A DNA stretch of 35,973 nucleotides from an uncultured Bacteroidota bacterium (GTDB lineage Bacteria; Bacteroidota; Bacteroidia; Bacteroidales; CG2-30-32-10): NCBI GenBank assembly GCA_903889915.1, contig CAISZK010000401.1, positions 1-35,973 on the forward strand, in the 5' to 3' direction. This document shows, in pieces, positions 15,789-27,518 of this stretch (position 1 is its first letter; each line of letters begins with the position of its first letter). Below the pieces are notes generated by a model. The model was given only the letters and a program-made list of their open reading frames with translations, searched no databases and was not told the origin of the DNA. The position numbers and the translations under genes are program-made.

Positions 15789-16403
15789 TCAAATGATCAT
15801 GATCTGAATAGGATCACACCAAGGTGTTAAATCATCATATTTTACTGCACAGAACCGGAACCATACACGCTTTCCGCTTTCAAGATTTGTTATGGTAGCT
15901 TTTACTTTCCTTGAATATCCAACCACTTTCCAGCTTTCTTCATCAAGGATATCATTGCCGGTATTCATTGACCAGATATAAGAGCCGGCGCCTTTAACAG
16001 ACCTGCAACGCAGAACTGCTTCACCAGGGAAATTGCCGTGCTTTGCCATGAATTCTGGTATTGAAATCAAAGAGTTATCTTTTGTGCAATTAAATCCACT
16101 GCTTAAAATCAAAGCCATATTGCCTCTGGCAATTCTGTCCACATACAATCCTTCGGTGAACAGCAAATCGTTTACTTCATTTTTTGCTCTTAATAATTCC
16201 GCTGTTTTTTGTTTACCGCCTTCAAAAGCGGCTACAATTTTTACCCGGAGATTTTCGAGCGCAGTGTCAAGTTCAGTAAGTGGAATGTCGGGATTAGGAA
16301 ATGAATCATTGTCTGTCATTTTTTCTCTTACATTTTTTCCGAAATCATGTAGTTTTGATGCAGAATACCTCTTGTATTTGTGCACCACTTTTTTTTTCTT
16401 CAT
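15789..16403 (-). CDS. Hypothetical protein with fibronectin-type-III-like C-terminal domain
   Basis: The protein has 204 residues, no signal peptide, and a very basic N-terminus (MKKKKVVHKYKRYSASKLHDFG). Residues about 30-105 are helical, with a low-complexity start (DNDSFPNPDIPLTELDTALENL) and a segment ending near DRIARGNMALILSSGF. Residues about 120-204 have the spacing of an FN3 fold: AVLRCRSVKGAGSYIWSM, a middle strand WKVVGYSRKVKATITNL, then GKRVWFRFCAVKYDDLTPWCDPIQIMI. Proteins of this size and pattern are common and uncharacterised in Bacteroidota, often in repeat-rich regions. It is convergent with cvpA. Its role is unknown. Confidence 0.72.
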   Translation of the reverse strand: MKKKKVVHKYKRYSASKLHDFGKNVREKMTDNDSFPNPDIPLTELDTALENLRVKIVAAFEGGKQKTAELLRAKNEVNDLLFTEGLYVDRIARGNMALILSSGFNCTKDNSLISIPEFMAKHGNFPGEAVLRCRSVKGAGSYIWSMNTGNDILDEESWKVVGYSRKVKATITNLESGKRVWFRFCAVKYDDLTPWCDPIQIMII

Positions 16404-17199
16404 TGTTTTAAAAATTTAATTATTAGTTATTCCGTTTATTATTCAATTACTTTTCTTATTCCACACCCTGTACAATTGATGAATTTAGGGTGTTTCATCT
16501 CACTTATTTTAAATTATTTTCTTTAATCTCTTTTCAATTTTTCTTTCTGCTTTTTTTCTTCTTCGGGTTTTATGTCCTTCTTCACTACATCCCCGTATTA
16601 ACTTTTAAAAAATCACAAAAACTGAAATAATTTTTTTAAAAAACAATCAATAATAAATTGCCTTTTACTCTTACCACGAAGAAGGGTTGTCAGAATCACA
16701 TGAAAAGTCCAAAAAAAACAGCTTGCTTTTTTTTGAAAAAATTGCAGTGAAAAAAATCTACGAAAGTCTTTTTGCGTGCTTCAGGAGAATAATAAATTCA
16801 TGTTAGCCTTTACATTTACAAATCCTATCAAAACATGCGTGCATAGAACCAAAGTATCACTGCTTGGATGGCAAGTTTTTTTACATGGAAGTTAGGCTAG
16901 AAAACAATTAATTTAAACATAGCTGAATAACGTTTAAGTTCAAACGTAAAGAATGCAATATTTTAACCTTTAAAGCTAAGTTCCCAAATTCTGATATTAT
17001 GCATCCTTATGGCAGTTATAAGGGTTCGTTCTTTGATCTTATGGACGCAAATGCTGATTGTAAGAAAGGGTAATGTGATTGTATGAACCGGTGTTTGGGA
17101 ACACACCTTAATTTTATGATTAGGAAGAAAAAAAGTTATTCAGTAAATGCTTGTTCCTTCATCATTTTATTAAATAAATAAAGGACTGTTCTCACCGAG
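16404..17199. other. Intergenic region with no gene seen
   Basis: These 796 bases hold no credible ORF. Small inverted repeats are visible: CACCCT/AGGGTG at about 16463-16491, CCTTAT-N7-ATAAGG at 17005-17023, and GGTGT/ACACC at about 17091-17108. The last two lie downstream of the operon ending at 17200 but lack T-runs. The T-rich stretch 16500-16570 flanks the start of the FN3-like gene and may include its promoter. Confidence 0.55.
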
Positions 17200-17952
17200 T
17201 TACCTTATCAGTTTCAAAACTCCGTTAATGAATGTCAATGGATGTGGAGGACATCCGGGAATATAGAGATCGGGTTTCAAAACATTCAGTAAATGCCTGT
17301 CAACTGCAGGGCTTTCGGCAAACGCGCCACCGCTTACGGCACATGCACCAGCTAGGATTAGTATCTTTGGTTGGGGTATCGCTTCCATTGTAATCCTTAG
17401 CGATTCAGAACTATTTGCAACAATGGGTCCTGTAACAACAACACCATCGCAATGTCTGGGTGAAGCGAGAAATTCAATTCCATAACGACCCATATCGAAG
17501 TTTACATTGCCACAGGCATTCAGTTCAAGTTCGCAACCATTGCAACTACCTGCTGAAACCAATCGCAATTTTAATGATCTTCCGAAACATTCTTTAATCT
17601 CTTTCCTGATCTTATCCGCATCAAATTTTATCTCTTCATTAATACCTTCTTTTACGATCAAGGCATTTGAATCATTGGAGGCAATATTATGATCCGGGGT
17701 GAATTTAATTTTACCAGAAGGACAAATATTTTCGCATTCTCCACAGAACACACACTTACCCAAATCCAAACTTACGGGTGCAATGTCAATAGCATGTACA
17801 GGGCAAATTTCTTTGCAGGAATTGCATTGTTGCTGACATTGTTTTCCATCAATAGCCGGTCGTCCAGGATGCTGAGGAGGAAGAACAACCGTTGTTGGAT
17901 CAGGAATAAATTGCCTGCCCTGGTGTTTTATTATTTTTAGAATGTCAAACAT
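17200..17952 (-). CDS. Ehr/hydrogenase-4-like small subunit: ferredoxin fused to NuoB/HyfI-type domain
   Basis: The 250 residues join two parts that are separate proteins (HyfH and HyfI) in hydrogenase-4. Residues 1 to about 80 hold two 4Fe-4S sites: C39-x3-C43-x2-C46-x3-C50-P and C67-x2-C70-x2-C73-x3-C77-P. Residues about 125-250 are the NuoB/HyfI-type domain with C137-x2-C140 (GSCNGCELE), C204 (AGACAVSGG) and C234 (IPGCPPHP), the four ligands of a 4Fe-4S cluster of the type next to the active site. The electron path therefore looks complete. It is the last gene of the operon and lies 141 bases after the large-subunit gene, a gap filled by an inverted repeat. It should form the soluble arm of the complex, facing the cytoplasm. 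Confidence 0.9.
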   Translation of the reverse strand: MFDILKIIKHQGRQFIPDPTTVVLPPQHPGRPAIDGKQCQQQCNSCKEICPVHAIDIAPVSLDLGKCVFCGECENICPSGKIKFTPDHNIASNDSNALIVKEGINEEIKFDADKIRKEIKECFGRSLKLRLVSAGSCNGCELELNACGNVNFDMGRYGIEFLASPRHCDGVVVTGPIVANSSESLRITMEAIPQPKILILAGACAVSGGAFAESPAVDRHLLNVLKPDLYIPGCPPHPLTFINGVLKLIR

Positions 17953-17969
17953 TTTAGTTTCGTTTTTTT

Positions 17970-18069
17970 ACCACATAGTCACAGTAGGAACATAGGTTTC
18001 ACATAGAACCCTCCCACAGATTTTGAATTACTATGTGCTATTCTATGTATCTATTGTGCCTATGTGGTT
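17970..18069. repeat. ACATAG-type imperfect inverted repeat inside the Ehr operon
   Basis: ACCACATAG-T-CACA-G-TAG... (17970-18006) and its near reverse complement (18031-18068) form arms of about 37 bases, around a 24-base centre. Each arm contains CACATAG, ACATAG and CACATAG steps. In RNA it would fold as a long hairpin between the last two genes of the operon. It looks like a dispersed intergenic repeat, though only one copy is in this window. Confidence 0.75.
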
Positions 18070-18093
18070 CCATTTAAAGTGAATTTTCATTTC

Positions 18094-19602
18094 CTACAAA
18101 TCATACCCGCAATAAGAAAGATCAAAGCTTTTATTGCAAACCGGAAAATCGGAAATATCATTGTTCCTTACTGCAAGTGCAAGCGCCATCCAGTTATGCA
18201 TTGACGGGTCCTTGATCTTATAATGTTTCAAATTTCCCTTTGCATCTGTGACCGCACAATGACAATGCTCACCTCTCCATCCTTCAACAAGTGAAATTCC
18301 GAAAGTATCCGATTCAAGATTTATTTCAGATTTTCCAGATGTCTTTTCTTCATCAGATTGTTCCAGCAAAGTTCGTATGGTTTTTAACGATTGAGTAACC
18401 TCCAATCTTCTGATCATCGCTCTTGCCTGCACATCTCCGGTGTCAAGACAAACGGGTTCATGGGTCAATTTATTAAAGGACAAATAAGGATGCGAACTCC
18501 TGATATCCCTTGTCATTCCACATGTCCGCGCCGACATTCCGACAGGCTGAATAAGATTTGCCTGTTCAGTTGTTACAATTCCTGTTCCTTCAAAACGTGC
18601 AAGAACGCCAGGAGTGTTGAACATGTAGTCTGCCATTTCATCAAAGCGTGGTTCAAATTTATCAAGGTTCTTCAGTATAATATTTTTTAATTCCGAAGTC
18701 AATGGATAAGGATTCGCTCCCGCTCTGATGAGTCTCCTTCCAAAACGATTTCCACACCATACAAGAAAAGTATTGATAAGTGTTGTCCGCAATCCCTGTA
18801 ACACCGCACTACCTAACTGATAAGCAATATCTGTGCACAATGCACTCAGATCACCTGTGTGAATGGCTGCTCTTTCAAGTTCTGTTGCTATGGTTCTTGA
18901 ACCAGTAGTTGCATCATTGACAGCAATATTTCCCAGTGATTCCTCAAGCATTGCAAAGGCAGTAGTATTTGCAGCCACACTGTCGCCAACAATACTTTCG
19001 ACAAGAACATGCCGTTCGATAAGACTTTTTTTCTTTAGAAATAATTGTTCAATTCCGCGATGCTGATAACCCAGATGAATTTCAAGATGCAGCACTTTTT
19101 CTCCATTGCAGATAAAGCGAAAATGTCCGGGTTCAATAATACCTGCATGAATAGGACCTACTCCCACTTCATGCAGTTCATGACTTTCCACCTCGTAAAA
19201 CGGATAATTATTCAGAATTTTTGTTTTGTCTTCACGGTCGAATGCATATCTGACAGGCTTACACCACGGATGCCCGCTGAATTCTATTCCAAAATTTTCG
19301 CTGATCTCCCTTTCAAAAATATGCATGCCCGGATAGTCCCTGGTGATTGAATCCAGCGCTTGTTTACTGTTCAGTTCATAAAGGAAAGAAGAAACAAAAA
19401 TTTCGGAAGTTGTGTCATTGCCAATGCAACAAAGCAGCCGCAGTTGTTTTTCATTTTCATGATAACCGTAATAATTCATGCAATGACAAGCAGGATCAGC
19501 AAGCAGGGATAATACATGCTCCCTGAACGAAGGATATTCCAGCAAAGGAATATTCCTTAATGGTGAAGTCTGTCCGTTTTTTAGAATTATGTGGTTCATC
19601 AT
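18094..19602 (-). CDS. Ehr/hydrogenase-4-like large subunit (NuoC-NuoD type), NiFe-ligand cysteines absent
   Basis: The protein has 502 residues, similar to HyfG/HycE. Residues about 35-140 are NuoC-like (HIFEREISENFGIEFSGHP). The rest is NuoD/large-subunit-like (GPIHAGIIEPGHFRF near 151, then LHLEIHLGYQHRGIEQLF). In true NiFe hydrogenases the L1 motif is CxxC; here that place reads ESIVGDSVA (about 202-210) with no cysteine. The C-terminal DPCxxC motif is reduced to FDLSYCGYDL, with a single Cys498 (and Cys489 earlier). So it cannot hold a standard NiFe site. This is the mark of Ehr complexes, described as relatives of complex I and group-4 hydrogenases lacking NiFe. Its ATG directly follows the stop of the gene before it. 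Its substrate is unknown. Confidence 0.9.
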   Translation of the reverse strand: MMNHIILKNGQTSPLRNIPLLEYPSFREHVLSLLADPACHCMNYYGYHENEKQLRLLCCIGNDTTSEIFVSSFLYELNSKQALDSITRDYPGMHIFEREISENFGIEFSGHPWCKPVRYAFDREDKTKILNNYPFYEVESHELHEVGVGPIHAGIIEPGHFRFICNGEKVLHLEIHLGYQHRGIEQLFLKKKSLIERHVLVESIVGDSVAANTTAFAMLEESLGNIAVNDATTGSRTIATELERAAIHTGDLSALCTDIAYQLGSAVLQGLRTTLINTFLVWCGNRFGRRLIRAGANPYPLTSELKNIILKNLDKFEPRFDEMADYMFNTPGVLARFEGTGIVTTEQANLIQPVGMSARTCGMTRDIRSSHPYLSFNKLTHEPVCLDTGDVQARAMIRRLEVTQSLKTIRTLLEQSDEEKTSGKSEINLESDTFGISLVEGWRGEHCHCAVTDAKGNLKHYKIKDPSMHNWMALALAVRNNDISDFPVCNKSFDLSYCGYDL

Positions 19603-21036
19603 CTATTTAATCAAATATTGAATGGCTTCATTGATCAATCCTGTCACTGCATCGGGTGGATTCAGTCCGATGTACAAAGCTGTGATCAAAAGAAAATACT
19701 GGGGAACATTTTCCCAGTTGTTAATCCTTGGTTTGTTTTCAAGCAATGCCTGTGGGGCTTTCAAAAACAGAATATGAAAAATTGATTTGCCGAAAGCCCA
19801 TAAAATAAATGCAAGCAAAACGAGCATGAAAATGATCAGCCACAAATAACCTCCTGCAATGAGAGCCTGGAAGATCATCAGCTTGGTGAAAAATAATCCT
19901 GAAGGAGGGATTCCCATGATCACCAGGAATAGAAATAAAATGAGCACGCCGCCTGATGGTGTTATTCCGAAATATCCTCCCGTATCACCTATGTGTTTTG
20001 TCTTGAAAACCCTTACCAGTTGTGATGTCTGATAGAATAGTCCTGCCTTGGTGAAAGAGTGAATAATGAGGTGCAATATCACAGCAAAATATGCAATGCC
20101 TCCAATAGCAATTCCAATAGTGATCAACCCCATGTGCTCTATACTTGAATAGGCAATAAGTCTTTTGTAATTGTCCACTTTCAGCATATAGACTGTCGCC
20201 ACAAGCAGTGTGAGAACTCCGATAATAAGCATCACATGACTCATCCAGTCGCAGAGTGAAGTGTGTGCAAAAAGCTGGTAGAACCTGAACACCGAAACAA
20301 AGCCCATGTTCATCAGTGATGTGGAAATGATGGCGCTTACAGGTCCCGGAGCCACACTGTGCGCATCAATACACACTGTGTGCAACGGGAACACACCCAT
20401 TTTTACACTAAAGCCAATCACAATTAGTAAGAATGATACCTGGAATAAAAACTGGTTGGTGATCAAAATCTTTTCCGAGATCAGTGATGAAAATGTGAGG
20501 GATGAAAAACCGGAAACATTGGTGGCTGCATTCAACAGGAGTATGCCGATAAATGAAAATGATAAACCTATTGTGGAAACAAAGAAATATTTCCAAGTAG
20601 CCTCAAGCGCTTCTTCTGTCCGCTCATGATAGATCAATAGAGAAATGCACAAAGTAGTTGCTTCGGCAAGTATCCAGAGGATATTGATATTGTCGGATAA
20701 GAAGGCTCCGGTCATGCAGCCGAACAGCAAAAACAATGATGTGAGATAAACAGATCTTCGTTGTGCCCGTTCCTGTCTGTGATGAAAGTAAACAAAACTG
20801 TTGATGATGGTGGTGATACCTGTAATTGACAGTACGCTGATAAAAATTAATGACAGTGCATCGGGTCTGAAAAATAAACCTGACACCAAATCTTTATCAG
20901 TGAATAATAAATAATTTAAAGCAAGTAGAACTATGCAAAATAAAGATGCAGAAAGGTACTGCAGCATTGGTTTTCTTATGAAAAACACGAATGTCGCAAG
21001 ACCAAATACTGCAATAAAATAGATCAACAATCCCAT
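19603..21036 (-). CDS. Ehr/HyfF-like antiporter-type membrane subunit (NuoN/NuoM family)
   Basis: The 477 residues hold about 13-14 predicted membrane helices of the proton_antipo_M type. The proton-channel residues are present: Glu125 in WILAEATTL, Lys212 in GFSVKMGVFPLHT, and a second-half lysine in LKVDNYKRLIAYSSIEHMG. The motif FPLHTVCIDAHSVAPGPVSAII matches HyfF/HycD-type relatives of NuoM and NuoN. It is one of two antiporter-like subunits in this operon (the other starts at 24710), so ion translocation is likely. It directly abuts the large-subunit gene (0 bases), but lies 155 bases after the HyfE-like gene; a heptamer array fills that gap. The role is known for the family; the ion pumped is inference. 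Confidence 0.92.
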   Translation of the reverse strand: MGLLIYFIAVFGLATFVFFIRKPMLQYLSASLFCIVLLALNYLLFTDKDLVSGLFFRPDALSLIFISVLSITGITTIINSFVYFHHRQERAQRRSVYLTSLFLLFGCMTGAFLSDNINILWILAEATTLCISLLIYHERTEEALEATWKYFFVSTIGLSFSFIGILLLNAATNVSGFSSLTFSSLISEKILITNQFLFQVSFLLIVIGFSVKMGVFPLHTVCIDAHSVAPGPVSAIISTSLMNMGFVSVFRFYQLFAHTSLCDWMSHVMLIIGVLTLLVATVYMLKVDNYKRLIAYSSIEHMGLITIGIAIGGIAYFAVILHLIIHSFTKAGLFYQTSQLVRVFKTKHIGDTGGYFGITPSGGVLILFLFLVIMGIPPSGLFFTKLMIFQALIAGGYLWLIIFMLVLLAFILWAFGKSIFHILFLKAPQALLENKPRINNWENVPQYFLLITALYIGLNPPDAVTGLINEAIQYLIK

Positions 21037-21045
21037 CTTTTCTAA

Positions 21046-21187
21046 ATGTCAATAGTCAATAGTCATTAGTCATTAGTCATTAGTCAATAGTCAATAGTCA
21101 TTGTGTCAATAGTTGATTGTCTTTCAGATAAAACCTCCCGGTTTAAATGAAAGCGTGTTGACGTATGACTATTGACCAATGACATTA
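21046..21187. repeat. Heptamer repeat hairpin inside the Ehr operon, locus 3
   Basis: About nine 7-base units of GTCAATA/GTCATTA type (21048-21113) are followed, across about 50 bases, by the opposite orientation TGACTATTGACCAATGACATT (21165-21185). The arms 21046-21069 and 21163-21187 are near reverse complements, so the whole element can form a hairpin in the operon RNA. It starts 4 bases after the HyfE-like stop and ends 10 bases before the HyfF-like ATG. The array has the same unit family as loci 1, 2 and 4. Confidence 0.8.
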
Positions 21188-21191
21188 TTTT

Positions 21192-21821
21192 TTAATCTGA
21201 TAGTTTATTCAACTGGTCAATATCAAGATCTTTGTAAGTCTTTGCAATGCGGCTCATGAACAAGCCAAACAACAAAATACTTATTAAAATATCAAGTAAA
21301 ATTCCTGCATTCACAGCCATCGGGGTTTCCTTGCCCAGAGAGAATGAAAGCAATACAATACCGTTTTCCAAAACAATATACCCAATGATATGCTGAATGA
21401 TTTCCTTGCGCGAAACTATCAGGAACAAACCTGTCATGATGCCTGAAAATGCAGCAGTGATATAGATCAGTTTCAACTGTTCGTTTTGCAGATAGATCCC
21501 CATGATAAAACTCAGTATGATCAGAATGGAAACCGTAAGCACTGAAGAAAAGCCCGACATAAAAGGCGACACCTGTCTTTTGATCTTGTTTTTCACAACC
21601 ATTTTCTTGATGTAATAAGGAAGAATAACGGCTTTGAATAAAAGAGTTTCTGTGAGAACCACTGCCAGGTTGATAATATTTATTTCCTGCAACGAAAGAA
21701 ATGCAACACCAAAAAGCATCAGCCCCTGAACGATCAGCAGGTTGATGCAAACAAACAACCTTCCCGACACTGCAATGTAGAACAGGGAAATCAGAAATAT
21801 GATGATCAGCAGGTTGTTCAT
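21192..21821 (-). CDS. Ehr/HyfE-like membrane subunit (NuoK-related)
   Basis: This 209-residue hydrophobic protein matches hydrogenase-4 component E in length (about 216) and layout, with about seven helices. The NuoK-like core is near residues 118-165 (IYITAAFSGIMTGLFLIVSRKEIIQHIIGYIVLENGIVLLSF). It contains the conserved Glu in VLENGIV and a Glu in VVLTETLLFKAVILPYYI, both positioned in membrane segments as in NuoK. The protein would link the NuoH-like subunit to the antiporter subunits. It lies 4 bases after the HyfC-like gene and precedes the HyfF-like one. Confidence 0.88.
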   Translation of the reverse strand: MNNLLIIIFLISLFYIAVSGRLFVCINLLIVQGLMLFGVAFLSLQEINIINLAVVLTETLLFKAVILPYYIKKMVVKNKIKRQVSPFMSGFSSVLTVSILIILSFIMGIYLQNEQLKLIYITAAFSGIMTGLFLIVSRKEIIQHIIGYIVLENGIVLLSFSLGKETPMAVNAGILLDILISILLFGLFMSRIAKTYKDLDIDQLNKLSD

Positions 21822-21825
21822 GTTT

Positions 21826-22740
21826 TTAACTTTGATGCATTATGACCATTAAAATACTCAGAAAAATCAGTATGGATATTGGTGTAAACAGCACTATTGC
21901 CTTGTTGTTGTTTCGTAATTTATACCTTGCCCTGAACGATTCCACCATTCCAACCATCACCGCCATCAGAACCTGAATGCCAAGGAAGATCAATATTCCA
22001 AGATAAACCGGCAGATCGGGTGTGAAAAAGAAATTACTGATAAGCGCGCCAAAGACAACGAATTTTAATGAAGAAGCAAAATTGATAAGCGCCAGATCAA
22101 AGCCGCTGTTGTCAAGCACCATTACTTCGTGTATCATCGTCAGTTCAAGATGGGTTTTGGGATCGTCATAAGGCAGGCGGCTGTTCTCAACCATGATGAT
22201 CTGAAATAAATTATAAGCAGCAAGAACGCCTGCAAATACTGCTATGTAAGAACCAAAGTAGATGGAATTATAAATTTCATAAAAAGAAGTGTGCCCTGTG
22301 AACATTGCAAAGGAAGCCATCAGCACAAAGAAAGCAGGTTCAACAAGCATGGAATACAAAGCTTCCCTGCTGGCGCCCATTCCTTCAAAAGCGCTTCCGG
22401 TATCGAGCGCTGCAATGATCATGAAAAACTTCCCAAGTGCAAGAATATAACTGAATGCAATGAAGTCGCCGTTGAAAGAAAGTAACCCGGGTTGATTGTC
22501 GAAAGGGATAAGAAATGCTGCTGAGAGTATGGTTGAAAAATAAACCACAGGTGCAATTTTGAAAATAAAAGAAGTGGTGGAACTATACACATTTCCTTTT
22601 TTCAGCAGCCTTAAAATATCAAGCATCGGCTGAAACAAACCGGGTCCTTTTCTACCGCTGGCAATGCTTTTCACACGGGTGATAATACCCGGAAAAACAA
22701 GGCTGGTCAAAAGGATCATGATAATGCCTGTTGCTTTCAT
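21826..22740 (-). CDS. Ehr/HyfC-like membrane subunit (NuoH family)
   Basis: The 304 residues and about eight helices fit NuoH/HyfC. Conserved loop segments are present: SIASGRKGPGLFQPMLDILRLLKKG (about 25-49), and the charged NSRLPYDDPKTHLELTMIHE (about 186-205) that faces the redox domain in complex I. It also has ALDTGSAFEGMGASREALYSM (about 111-131), typical of HyfC-type proteins. The subunit anchors the soluble arm and should couple redox chemistry to ion movement. Its ATG overlaps the stop of the upstream antiporter gene by 4 bases (ATGA), so the two are translationally coupled. Confidence 0.92.
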   Translation of the reverse strand: MKATGIIMILLTSLVFPGIITRVKSIASGRKGPGLFQPMLDILRLLKKGNVYSSTTSFIFKIAPVVYFSTILSAAFLIPFDNQPGLLSFNGDFIAFSYILALGKFFMIIAALDTGSAFEGMGASREALYSMLVEPAFFVLMASFAMFTGHTSFYEIYNSIYFGSYIAVFAGVLAAYNLFQIIMVENSRLPYDDPKTHLELTMIHEVMVLDNSGFDLALINFASSLKFVVFGALISNFFFTPDLPVYLGILIFLGIQVLMAVMVGMVESFRARYKLRNNNKAIVLFTPISILIFLSILMVIMHQS

Positions 22741-24710
22741 ATCACTTTAAAAATAGTCAATAATATCAGCGCTATCAGCAGTACGAACATGTACATGATG
22801 TAGTGCTGGGTTTTTCCCGTTTGCACAAAGGCAAGCCGGTTCAATAGTCTTTGCATGGACCCTATCACCCTCAGAAATAGTTTTTCTTCAGCCAGGCTTT
22901 CCGAATGGGTTTTATAAGTGCGTTGCTGTGGAAAGATCTCTTCGGTTGCGATGGGTTTATATTCTGTTTTTTGATTCAGAAGATTGTCCATGTCATGATA
23001 ATAATTTTCCGCATAAGATGAAGCGGTGTATTGCAGTTTATCTGCGTTACCCGTATATCCGCATCCCCATGTAGGTCCCTGTTCAACAATTTTATTGCGT
23101 GTGAAAAGTGTTTTGATAAGGTACATCAGTAGTGTAATTCCAATGAAAAGCAAGGCAAACCAACTGATGGATGTTACATTCACAACCACCGCTTGTGGAG
23201 CAGGTATAATCGTGTGAGTAAACAATCCTGCAAGGTTGAAAAACAAACCTGAGAACAGTCCGGGCACAACACCTATTGCAACGATGGCAATTAAAATGAG
23301 GTATTGAGGTAATAAGGAATGCCATTTCATTTCGGTGACAGTTTCAGTTTTGATATGCCTTGGAGTTCCGAGAAAAACAATACCAAAAGCCTTGGTAAAA
23401 CAGAACACAGCCAGCCCTCCGATAACAACGAGTGAAAGCATCGAGAACATCATTAATATTTTCAGTCCAATGGAAGAAGAGATCACACCCTGTGCAAAGC
23501 CATTGTAAATGATGAATTCCGAAACAAAGCCATTGAAAGGAGGTAGTCCGCAAATGGCAATTGAGGCAACGAGAAACAAAATGGCAGTATGTGGCATTTT
23601 CTTTATCAGCCCTCCCAGACTGTCAATATTCCTTGTGTGTGTTCTCAGGTAAACCGAGCCGGCGCTGTAAAACAATAGTGATTTAAAAAGCGAGTGATTC
23701 AAAACATGTAAAATCCCACCTCCAAAACCAAGCACCGCTATCAGTTCGTTTTTTGTGGCAATGCCAATCATGCCTGTTCCTATGCCGATACCGATGATCC
23801 CTATGTTTTCAATGCTATGATAAGCTAACAATTTTTTAAGATCGTGTTGTATAATGGCTGTCCCCACTCCTGCAATACCGGAGACAATGGAAATTACAAG
23901 AATGATGATGCCGATGGTTAACAAGTCCGACTGAACATGCAATAGTACCCTGAGTATTCCATAGATCCCCATCTTGATCATTACTCCCGACATGATACCC
24001 GAAACATGTGTGGGCGCTGCAGGATGTGCATGAGGAAGCCATGTGTGGAAAGGAACAAATCCCGCTTTTATGCCGAAACCTGCAAAGAACAATAGAAACA
24101 AACCGATGTTTTTATTTCCTGCAAAGTAAGTTGTAAGTCCGCTCCAGTTGAGAGAACCTGTTTCATTATACACCAGTATCACGCCAATGATAAGCAACAA
24201 AGCGCCGATATGCATTTGCACCAGATAATTGATGCCCGCTTTGAGCACTTCGGGTTTTTCATTTTCAAAAATCACAAGGATGAACGATGACACCGACATG
24301 ATCTCCCAGGCAACAAGAAAAGCCACCATGTTATGGATCATGCAAACCATCAGCATGGAATAGAGAAGCCAGAAAAATGAAAAAAAGTGAAGCGAAAAAT
24401 CCGATTTCCTGCGCTCTTTGTACATGCCTATATATTCAATGGCAAACAGCGAACCCGTTATCACAGTAAAATCTATCACAAGTATGAAAAAGGCAGATAA
24501 AAGATCAATGGTAATTTCAATTTGATTTCCCCACAAACTGAATGGCAGACTTTCAGTGAAAGTCACCCCCGTGGCTATAACTTCAATGGCATAGTAACTG
24601 CTCAAAGCCGCTACCGAAACAGTAAGAAGTGCATTGAAATACGACTGGAACTTCTTTGGTAGCAGAAAGAATATGAGAGATAATAATGGTAAAAGAATAA
24701 AAACTGTCAT
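22737..24710 (-). CDS. Ehr/HyfB-like antiporter-type membrane subunit (NuoL family), first gene of the operon
   Basis: The 657 residues and about 16 helices match HyfB (about 670). Ion-path residues are intact: Glu136 in FLVAWEIMS, Lys215 in GFGIKAGFVPFHTWLPHAHP, Lys246 in GVMIKMGIYG, and a second-half KKLLAYHSIENIGI. The cytoplasmic loop GPTWGCGYTGNADKLQYTASSYAENYY near residue 540-575 is the usual HyfB signature. It is the first gene of six (HyfB, C, E, F, G and H-I-like; no HyfD and no maturation genes). A reverse-strand CACCTTTG box at 24733-24740, one base from the TAnnTTTG consensus, may be its promoter. Confidence 0.93.
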   Translation of the reverse strand: MTVFILLPLLSLIFFLLPKKFQSYFNALLTVSVAALSSYYAIEVIATGVTFTESLPFSLWGNQIEITIDLLSAFFILVIDFTVITGSLFAIEYIGMYKERRKSDFSLHFFSFFWLLYSMLMVCMIHNMVAFLVAWEIMSVSSFILVIFENEKPEVLKAGINYLVQMHIGALLLIIGVILVYNETGSLNWSGLTTYFAGNKNIGLFLLFFAGFGIKAGFVPFHTWLPHAHPAAPTHVSGIMSGVMIKMGIYGILRVLLHVQSDLLTIGIIILVISIVSGIAGVGTAIIQHDLKKLLAYHSIENIGIIGIGIGTGMIGIATKNELIAVLGFGGGILHVLNHSLFKSLLFYSAGSVYLRTHTRNIDSLGGLIKKMPHTAILFLVASIAICGLPPFNGFVSEFIIYNGFAQGVISSSIGLKILMMFSMLSLVVIGGLAVFCFTKAFGIVFLGTPRHIKTETVTEMKWHSLLPQYLILIAIVAIGVVPGLFSGLFFNLAGLFTHTIIPAPQAVVVNVTSISWFALLFIGITLLMYLIKTLFTRNKIVEQGPTWGCGYTGNADKLQYTASSYAENYYHDMDNLLNQKTEYKPIATEEIFPQQRTYKTHSESLAEEKLFLRVIGSMQRLLNRLAFVQTGKTQHYIMYMFVLLIALILLTIFKVI

Positions 24711-25819: not shown

Positions 25820-26545
25820 TCAAAATGCCAATTCAACTTGTGGAACTTCTTTATACAACTTGCCGTTAAGCGTACTTCCTGCTTTCTTTTTGTTGGTGCC
25901 TCCCCATTGTTTAAAGTAAAAGGACACATCAGCTTTTTCGCATTGCTCTTTAATATCAACTACCCATTCTTCCTTTATCGGACGGGGAGTACGGCCGCTT
26001 TCACCACCCACAATAACCCAATCAATGCCACTTAAATTCATTTCCGGTACTGCGCTTAACAATGGTTCGCAACTGAGGAATTTCACCCTTGCTTTGGTTT
26101 CTCTTAACTGATCTATTCTTTTTAAAACACCAGTGTTTTCAACCGTTACACCCATCCAAATATTATGTGACCAATCGAGCCATCCTTCACTATCGTAATA
26201 ATTAAGAACATCTGCCCGTTTTGTCAGCACCTGGAAAACGTGCTGTGGATTTTCTTTCATCACACGAAAGACTTTTTGAATGTAATCAATAGGAACATCT
26301 TTATGAAACAGATCACCCATTGAGTTCACAAAAATCACTTTCGATTTTTTCCATTTGTAAGGTTCGTTTAAAGCCTCCGGATGCAATGCCAGATTAAACC
26401 CGTTTTCATATTTTGCTTGCCCCATCGCTTGCAAGCGTAATGCCATAACTTCAGCATAACAGTTTTTGCAGCCTGATGAGATTTTATCGCAACCAGTAAC
26501 AGGGTTCCAGGTCATCTCGGTCCATTCTATTTTTGTGCTTGCCAT
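25820..26545 (-). CDS. DUF5131 / phage Gp37-Gp68-like protein with three-Cys motif
   Basis: The 241 residues begin MASTKIEWTEMTWNPVTGCDKISSGCKNC, with Cys19-x6-Cys26-x2-Cys29, the three-Cys motif that suggests a radical-SAM-type 4Fe-4S site. Other conserved parts are VIFVNSMGDLFHKDVP, FQVLTKRAD, WMGVTVEN, VKFLSCEPLL, WVIVGGESG, and the C-terminal FYFKQWGGTNKKKAG. These match the DUF5131 family, widespread in phages and mobile DNA. It starts 1 base after the TcmP stop, and the two families are usual partners, so the product probably acts with TcmP. The chemistry and target are unknown; a role in defence or phage biology is inference. Confidence 0.88.
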   Translation of the reverse strand: MASTKIEWTEMTWNPVTGCDKISSGCKNCYAEVMALRLQAMGQAKYENGFNLALHPEALNEPYKWKKSKVIFVNSMGDLFHKDVPIDYIQKVFRVMKENPQHVFQVLTKRADVLNYYDSEGWLDWSHNIWMGVTVENTGVLKRIDQLRETKARVKFLSCEPLLSAVPEMNLSGIDWVIVGGESGRTPRPIKEEWVVDIKEQCEKADVSFYFKQWGGTNKKKAGSTLNGKLYKEVPQVELAF

Positions 26546-26546
26546 T

Positions 26547-27434
26547 TTAAATACTTTTTATAATGTCTTTTGCAATTTTAACAGCAAAAGTATTATTTGA
26601 AGCAAAAACAAAATGAAAAATAGGAACGTTATGTGTGTTATACAAGATTAACGGCTCCTCTGTAACATGCTCCCAAATTGTTTTTAGTTGCTTAATATAA
26701 ACTTTTGATATTTGCTGAATAGGTTTGCTGATCTTTTTGATTATTTCATCATCTTCACCAAACAATGTTGGCTGAGTATGTTTTCGATAAAATACCTTTT
26801 TGATTTCATCTTCGTTTAAACCAAAAAATGTTTGAAGCAATGTAGAAGATTTCAGTTCACACTTATTATCCAACAGCCTATTCACGATAACACCTGTCGG
26901 TATCAGTATCCAAACATCGCTTCTTGTACCTTTAAGAGAAGCAATAGAATTCCAATTTATCTGCATTCCAAAAGGGTCAAGAAGAACCAATGCAGCAAGG
27001 TCGCTGTTTTTTTCTTTTAAAGCGGCAGATAGTTCAAATAATTTTTGATTACAATCACCAGGTCTGAATTGAAATTGCTTTTTCCCTTTTTGTAATTTTC
27101 CCAATTTATCTTCGAGTTTGTTCAATGATTCCTGATTTGAATCAATGAAGTAATGAAAATCAAATGATAGATTGTTGGATAGGGATAAAACTCTTTCTGC
27201 TGCCCCTTTATAGACTTTCTCTTCTTCGATAGATAATGATAATTGTTTGTAAAGTTCTGTTTCAATATTCTCACTTCGGTGCCCGCTACCTGCAAAACCA
27301 TCAAAATAAATAGTTTTCCAGTAAGGATACTTTTTCATTATTGTCAAATAGGCAGAAACATATTTGGCAAAAGCATCAAGTTTCTTTTCTGTCCAACTGC
27401 CGCCCCATTCTGCATTTGGCTCATTCAATATCAT
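26547..27434 (-). CDS. tcmP: Three-Cys-motif partner protein TcmP
   Basis: An ATG at 27464 is in frame, but the ATG at 27434 is preferred: a TACTTTTG minus-7 box (reverse strand, 27454-27461) lies inside the longer version, so the transcript would start after the first ATG. The product then has 295 residues and begins MILNEPNAEWGGSWTEKKLDAF, which fits the family. The Rossmann-type motif TIYFDGFAGSG (41-51) and DPFG (153-156, in LVLLDPFGMQINW) resemble an S-adenosylmethionine-dependent methyltransferase, with DPFG at the place of the DPPY/NPPY motif. This is a family observation by motif, not a proven activity. The DUF5131 gene follows 1 base after its stop. Flanked by repeats with RhuM fossils, the pair may be a mobile cassette. 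Confidence 0.85.
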   Translation of the reverse strand: MILNEPNAEWGGSWTEKKLDAFAKYVSAYLTIMKKYPYWKTIYFDGFAGSGHRSENIETELYKQLSLSIEEEKVYKGAAERVLSLSNNLSFDFHYFIDSNQESLNKLEDKLGKLQKGKKQFQFRPGDCNQKLFELSAALKEKNSDLAALVLLDPFGMQINWNSIASLKGTRSDVWILIPTGVIVNRLLDNKCELKSSTLLQTFFGLNEDEIKKVFYRKHTQPTLFGEDDEIIKKISKPIQQISKVYIKQLKTIWEHVTEEPLILYNTHNVPIFHFVFASNNTFAVKIAKDIIKSI

Positions 27435-27453
27435 TGGTGTAAATTTATTGTTA

Positions 27454-27461
27454 CAAAAGTA
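27454..27461 (-). promoter_or_regulatory. Putative minus-7 box of the tcmP operon
   Basis: The reverse strand reads TACTTTTG (consensus TAnnTTTG). It overlaps the codons that would follow the first in-frame ATG (27464), and so decides for the ATG at 27434, about 20 bases downstream. Confidence 0.5.
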
Positions 27462-27518
27462 CAAAATTATTTAGCTTGAATGCCACTAGAACGTTGCTGC
27501 ATTTCTTTTTTGACTTAG

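Follow-up and report, generated by a model that had tools for sequence, protein, structure and literature searches.

An energy-converting-hydrogenase-related (Ehr) complex with complete iron-sulfur wiring in an uncultured Bacteroidota genome

The window analysed here is a stretch of 35,973 nucleotides (contig CAISZK010000401.1 of assembly GCA_903889915.1) from a metagenome-assembled genome (MAG) of Bacteroidia, which comprises 5.55 Mb in 476 contigs and is 96% complete and 4.3% contaminated. It harbours an operon of six intact open reading frames (ORFs) on the minus strand, from position 24710 to 17200, that with near certainty encodes an energy-converting-hydrogenase-related (Ehr) complex. 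Based on the ORF list and Pfam, the subunits are HyfB-, HyfC-, HyfE-, HyfF- and HycE/NuoCD-like (the last is the large subunit, EhrL), together with a fused HyfH-HyfI-like small subunit, EhrS. Ehr is a kind of complex already known, and the window contains a further member of it, fully wired, unlike 96 of its relatives. In published work, Ehr complexes are described as lacking the NiFe cysteines and as being of unknown function (PMC6349859, PMC10284858, PMC12342949).

The Ehr family and its replaced NiFe site

The proteins of the operon match Proton_antipo_M twice (E 3e-58 and 8e-47), NADHdh (2.5e-32), Oxidored_q2, Complex1_30kDa with Complex1_49kDa, and Oxidored_q6 with 4Fe-4S domains. Curated NCBIfam models also match them, with scores below the model cut-offs. 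One genome scan revealed at least 571 relatives, of which the best 80 belong to Bacteroidota, Melainabacteria, Desulfobacterota, Planctomycetota, Spirochaetota and others. The exact order B-C-E-F-L-S, present in several phyla, was found in 45 of the 60 loci that show the operon from end to end; the other loci include ORF-calling artefacts at high GC content. In the phylogenetic tree, Ehr forms one branch (support 100/100), apart from HycE/HyfG/MbhL and from NuoD, with the complex of Geomonas edaphica (Geobacteraceae; locus L119) inside. The latter is equated with the Geobacter Ehr by family membership, the sequence of GSU0739-0745 itself lying outside the comparison. Operon content, loss of the NiFe site and this separate branch all agree with a preliminary description of the window, made from the DNA letters alone, which had named an Ehr-type complex.

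The top match of EhrL among solved structures in HMMER is HycE (E 1.5e-27), followed by MbhL. The CGIC column of HycE (L1) corresponds to VGDS in EhrL, and the SLDPCYSC column (L2) to SFDLSYCG. The same columns were obtained with MAFFT, in an alignment of 91 EhrL sequences with E. coli HyfG, HycE and NuoCD that was later enlarged to 136 EhrL. Both NiFe cysteine pairs are lost, as the preliminary description had stated when it placed VGDS and a single cysteine at these motifs and denied the complex a NiFe site for H2. A reading with shifted cysteines was rejected: L1 contains no cysteine and the sole cysteine of L2, C498, lies between both ligand columns, so the NiFe cysteines are not just displaced.

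A rebuilt pocket, with Asp207, Ser496, Tyr497 and Gly499 invariant, is present in 136 of 136 EhrL, including one from Geobacteraceae. The second L1 ligand column contains cysteine in none of the 136 sequences, and L2 reads S-Y-[CSA]-G. Residues I156, E157, D207, D366, R368, E440, R443, S496, Y497, G499 and D501 are invariant in the wired and de-wired relatives (described below) alike. Two window residues, Ile156 and Gly206, occupy the positions of the complex I quinone His and Tyr of NuoD/Nqo4 (His38 and Tyr87 of T. thermophilus). The AlphaFold model of EhrL (pLDDT 89, pTM 0.91) has HycE as its closest fold (Z 42.1, rmsd 2.6, 478 residues). Confidence is low for loop 149-162 and for the five C-terminal residues, so the model of the pocket is unreliable.

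A decaying or cryptic hydrogenase, or one active on H2 with unusual ligands, is extremely improbable. A residual cysteine stands at the first L1 position in 12 of the 136 EhrL and the genome carries maturation genes; however, CxxC occurs at L1 or L2 in no relative, the replacements are invariant, and the sequence refutes this explanation. The C-terminus of EhrL is DL or DI in all 137 rows, and a HycE/HyfG-type tail for the maturation protease is absent. The window EhrL lacks the features by which group 4 NiFe hydrogenases are recognised, namely CxxC at L1 and L2 and a protease-cleaved C-terminal extension. The pocket was rebuilt in one consistent way, which speaks against decay. As judged from these alignments, the Ehr complex of the window is a maintained complex of a known kind and not a decayed hydrogenase.

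No hyp gene and no second large subunit adjoin the operon. The earlier remark that maturation genes are not adjacent is correct, but the genome encodes HypD on another contig and possesses real NiFe hydrogenases: two intact NiFe large subunits (Mvh-Hdr and Hox) on other contigs, with the Mvh-Hdr cluster on contig C12.

Wiring of EhrS in the window and its relatives

The window EhrS keeps all 12 cluster cysteines, four for the proximal cluster and eight for the two ferredoxin clusters (Table 1), in agreement with the preliminary description of its 4Fe-4S cysteines as intact. Among 135 distinct classifiable EhrS, 39 are wired and 96 de-wired, proportions that are not unbiased frequencies because the relatives were sampled by similarity to the window. 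All 12 cysteines are present in 13 of the 39 wired EhrS (the window, Geomonas and eleven others). De-wired EhrS, which belong almost entirely to Bacteroidota, possess Asp at 137 in 93 sequences, Asp at 204 in 90 and Asn at 234 in 89, and in 88 of them every cysteine of ferredoxin cluster I is missing. Of the 135 EhrS, 133 retain an intact cluster II. Substitute ligands for the proximal cluster were sought in the de-wired type and rejected: C140 survives in just 72 of the 96, and no other residue stands in as a ligand for the remaining three cysteines.

The de-wired type is no MAG artefact, since the genome of an Ancylomarina isolate (L072) carries it too. The de-wired EhrS of L039 is predicted to fold normally (pLDDT 94.7) and matches HycG with Z 15.4 over 135 residues. 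In L070 the proximal cluster is lost and both ferredoxin clusters are kept, a plausible intermediate between the two types, judging by its ligands. A second HyfB-like gene was found in 34 of 82 de-wired loci versus one of 33 wired loci (L119). The open-access literature searched yielded no description of de-wired Ehr; the founding Ehr papers lie outside that search and an earlier notice is possible.

In the membrane arm, the family alignment shows the channel residues E136, K215, K292, K343 and E398 of the HyfB-like subunit and E125, K149, K212 and K330 of the HyfF-like subunit to be kept in the window. The earlier claim that both antiporter-like subunits keep their Glu and Lys stands for these nine, but not for two positions of the HyfF-like subunit: the NuoM TM8 Lys is Asn in the window and most Ehr, and residue 385 (19882-19884), a Glu in 122 of 126 Ehr, is Lys in the window as well as in three further wired rows. 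Similarly, the loop of the HyfC-like subunit, earlier described as NuoH-like and intact, is complete by the standard of Ehr (D193, H197, H204 and D210 are Ehr-invariant) but differs from those of NuoH, HyfC and HycD. The HyfC loop residues are nearly invariant, and the antiporter residues invariant or nearly so, across wired and de-wired relatives.

The trees are compatible with a single loss of the wiring, which they do not reject. The tree built from EhrL, HyfC, HyfE and HyfF unites the window with L151 and L152 as a wired group (SH-aLRT 100) within an otherwise de-wired Bacteroidota branch; in that of EhrL and EhrS without the ligand columns, the window group is sister to the remainder of this branch (82). 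The exception is L153, which is wired, yet placed among de-wired rows. Strict monophyly of the de-wired type is not rejected, though also not demonstrated, with p-AU 0.33 when L153 is left out and 0.11 when it is included. With no proximal cluster the electron path would be discontinuous, so the de-wired complexes would function without redox catalysis at the pocket. It is conceivable, at somewhat less than even confidence, that they make up a large Bacteroidota clade of such complex I relatives, with the wired window as a close surviving link from redox pump to non-redox machine.

A diverged partial copy of window positions 15789-17580, in which ehrS is reduced to its C-terminal half, was found in the same genome (G000:C128:1-1889; L169, L214). 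In this copy, with an ORF of 133 aa, the third proximal Cys codon is changed to Trp. Its sequence suggests a decayed duplicate or else a rearranged copy from another strain.

Predicted function

The reading that we favour for the window, held at even confidence, is a ferredoxin-fed ion pump. Low-potential electrons would enter the two-cluster domain of EhrS, most likely from soluble ferredoxin, because no dedicated dehydrogenase gene is attached to the operon. They would pass to the proximal cluster and then, where EhrL meets the HyfC-like subunit, to an acceptor in the remodelled pocket, which would be neither a hydrogenase site nor a quinone site of the complex I type. This redox step would power ion translocation via the HyfC/E/F/B arm. 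The Mvh-Hdr family elsewhere yields reduced ferredoxin, and we infer that the complex encoded on contig C12 could be a source of it for Ehr. The stand-alone conserved operon, the uniform motif replacement, the separate Ehr branch of the tree, the presence of all ligands, the channel residues, the HycE-like fold, the Mvh-Hdr cluster of the genome and the lack of a conserved partner gene beside the operon count in favour of the ferredoxin-fed pump.

Other observations weigh against it. The pocket is equally invariant in relatives lacking the proximal cluster, which would be odd for a pocket that receives electrons; Ile156 and Gly206 of the window stand where complex I has its quinone ligands; and roughly two in three wired relatives miss at least one ligand of ferredoxin cluster I. 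Since the de-wired sister clade keeps pocket and channels, conserved channels alone do not imply redox-driven pumping. The preliminary description had the complex carry electrons and probably pump ions; the wiring cysteines for the former are present, but the claim became less secure with this sister clade.

The Ehr family may thus have a role other than redox pumping. It is possible, although rather unlikely, that Ehr is a non-redox ion-translocating or gated complex, comparable to Mrp and DAB, with a regulatory or ligand-binding hydrogenase-like arm and with the wiring of the window as an ancestral leftover or a sensor. The replacement of the proximal cysteines by D/D/N in 96 distinct relatives, 88 of them without any cluster I cysteine, points in this direction, as does the well-predicted EhrS fold in the de-wired type. 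The strongest reason for retaining this explanation is that pocket and arm stay invariant even where electrons cannot be delivered to them. There is also a precedent in DAB2, which couples a complex-I-like subunit to CO2 hydration (PMC13144422). Nevertheless, every ligand is kept in the window, Geomonas and eleven other wired relatives, and the retention of cluster II in 133 of 135 EhrS suggests that some role in electron transfer or sensing persists.

Formate could be the electron source instead, if a formate dehydrogenase encoded elsewhere feeds EhrS, which we regard as improbable. A formate-linked Ehr was proposed for Margulisbacteria (PMC6349859), and Ehr subunits increase on formate in Geobacter sulfurreducens (PMC7894505). 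However, no gene for formate dehydrogenase or a HyfA-like protein was found in or beside the operon or among the recurrent neighbours of the relatives, in a search confined to these loci. Donation of electrons from NAD(P)H via a flavoprotein similar to ferredoxin-NAD(P) reductase is very improbable. A protein with FAD/NAD-binding and 2Fe-2S domains is encoded within about 50 bp after ehrS in L039, L044 and L045 (with Pfam matches in L039 and L045), but these are one genus-level group, all de-wired, and such a gene is absent beside the operon of the window.

Ehr is widespread, as seen from the relatives in the genome scan; coupling of a redox reaction in the cytoplasm to ion translocation is proposed for it, and its function is not established experimentally. 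The wired window and its de-wired sisters provide a natural experiment, in which the same pocket and membrane arm occur with and without the last cluster. The pair makes it directly testable whether Ehr is redox-driven, and bears on the coupling of the redox arm of complex I to its pumps.

Locus, neighbouring genes and known systems

Table 1. Features of the Ehr operon, with positions in the window
Feature	Position	Strand	Basis
HyfB/NuoL-like antiporter-type subunit, 657 aa, one copy	22737..24710	-	PF00361 3.2e-58; closest solved structures HycC 7z0s_C, MbhH 6cfw_H
HyfC/HycD/NuoH-like subunit, 304 aa	21826..22740	-	PF00146 2.5e-32; HycD 7z0s_D 5.8e-24; Ehr-specific loop RLPYDDPKTHLELTMIHEVMVLDNSG
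HyfE/NuoK-like membrane subunit, 209 aa	21192..21821	-	PF00420 4e-07; NCBIfam hydrogenase 4 membrane subunit 1e-16
HyfF/NuoN-like antiporter-type subunit, 477 aa	19603..21036	-	PF00361 8e-47
EhrL, large subunit, NuoC-like + HycE/NuoD-like fusion, 502 aa	18094..19602	-	Pfam, HMMER, AlphaFold fold match
L1 motif VGDS, residues 205-208, where hydrogenase has CGIC	18979..18990	-	alignment
L2 motif SFDLSYCGYDL, residues 492-502, versus SLDPCYSCTDR; protein end, no cleavable tail	18097..18129	-	alignment
EhrS, fusion of a HyfH-like 2x[4Fe-4S] domain with a HyfI/MbhJ/NuoB-like one, 250 aa	17200..17952	-	
First ferredoxin motif CQQQCNSCKEIC: C39, C43, C46, C50	17803..17838	-	
Second ferredoxin motif CVFCGECENIC: C67, C70, C73, C77	17722..17754	-	
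Proximal-cluster ligands C137 and C140 (CNGC)	17533..17544	-	
Proximal-cluster ligand C204	17341..17343	-	
Proximal-cluster ligand C234	17251..17253	-	

Between the hyfE- and hyfF-like genes, a TGACTAT-type heptamer repeat is present at 21051-21110. A 20-mer of it has 832 matches in the genome (at most 2 mismatches) versus none for the reversed control, so the repeat is genome-wide and present on many contigs. A second element, near 17963-18007, was found again on contig C128. Outside the operon, a DUF5131 protein adjoins the three-Cys-motif partner protein TcmP (25820-27464).

Among the loci of the relatives, no redox-partner gene is conserved beside the operon; linkages are lineage-specific only. 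This agrees with the preliminary description, which named no redox partner for the whole group. A 757-aa gene before ehrL in L213 was considered as a dehydrogenase and rejected, since it encodes a DUF349 protein. A homologous gene precedes the hyfB-like gene, immediately or at a short distance, in L086, L095, L114, L117, L126, L129 and L131, from Spirochaetota, Planctomycetota and Bacteroidota, plus Desulfobulbus. In L086, L117 and L126 its product possesses the Pfam domains HTH_17 and PTS_EIIA_2 and, from this domain content, is likely a PTS-type regulator of Ehr.

In some Desulfobacterota-type genomes, and among the relatives only there, a conserved protein of about 390 aa adjoins Ehr (L104:3-899, L116:12657-13838, L118:3518-4699 and L125:3706-4878). 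The protein of L116 weakly resembles the LCIB carbonic-anhydrase domain (E 5e-5, slightly under the cut-off), and a CO2 link is possible. A search for an LCIB-like gene in the genome of the window and five others, made without a positive control, gave no match. The operon contains no DabA-like beta-carbonic-anhydrase subunit of a DAB-type CO2 pump. A NuoCD-type complex I cluster is encoded on contig C72, and a further complex-I-like cluster was found at C132:276-10602 (L049).

The closest known system is the Ehr of Geobacter sulfurreducens (GSU0739-0745), compared via Geomonas edaphica L119. It shares with the window the subunit set and order, the loss of the NiFe ligands, the GD[ST] and SYCG motifs, the wired EhrS and the branch of the tree. 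The window has one HyfB-like subunit and L119 two, and their EhrL are 40% identical. The window also differs from most Ehr in having Asn in place of the L1-distal His212.

Similar to hydrogenase-4 and formate hydrogenlyase of E. coli (HyfBCEFGHI, HycCDEFG), the complex has the same gene order, the HycE fold, the NuoC-like fusion, and the proximal and ferredoxin cysteines. Unlike them, it lacks the NiFe ligands, the C-terminal tail, HyfD and HyfA, its HyfH and HyfI are fused, and its NuoH-type loop differs. With complex I (Nqo4/NuoCD, NuoB, NuoH, NuoL/M/N) it shares the fold, the membrane-arm residues and the absence of NiFe; however, no NuoEFG genes are in or beside the operon, the quinone His38/Tyr87 are replaced by Ile/Gly, and the tree branch is separate. 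The large and small subunits of Pyrococcus Mbh/Mbs can be aligned with those of the window, at lower similarity (E 1.4e-23 and 1.2e-9), whereas the complex has no Mrp-type MbhA-G subunits. Mbs is another natural case of NiFe-site loss.

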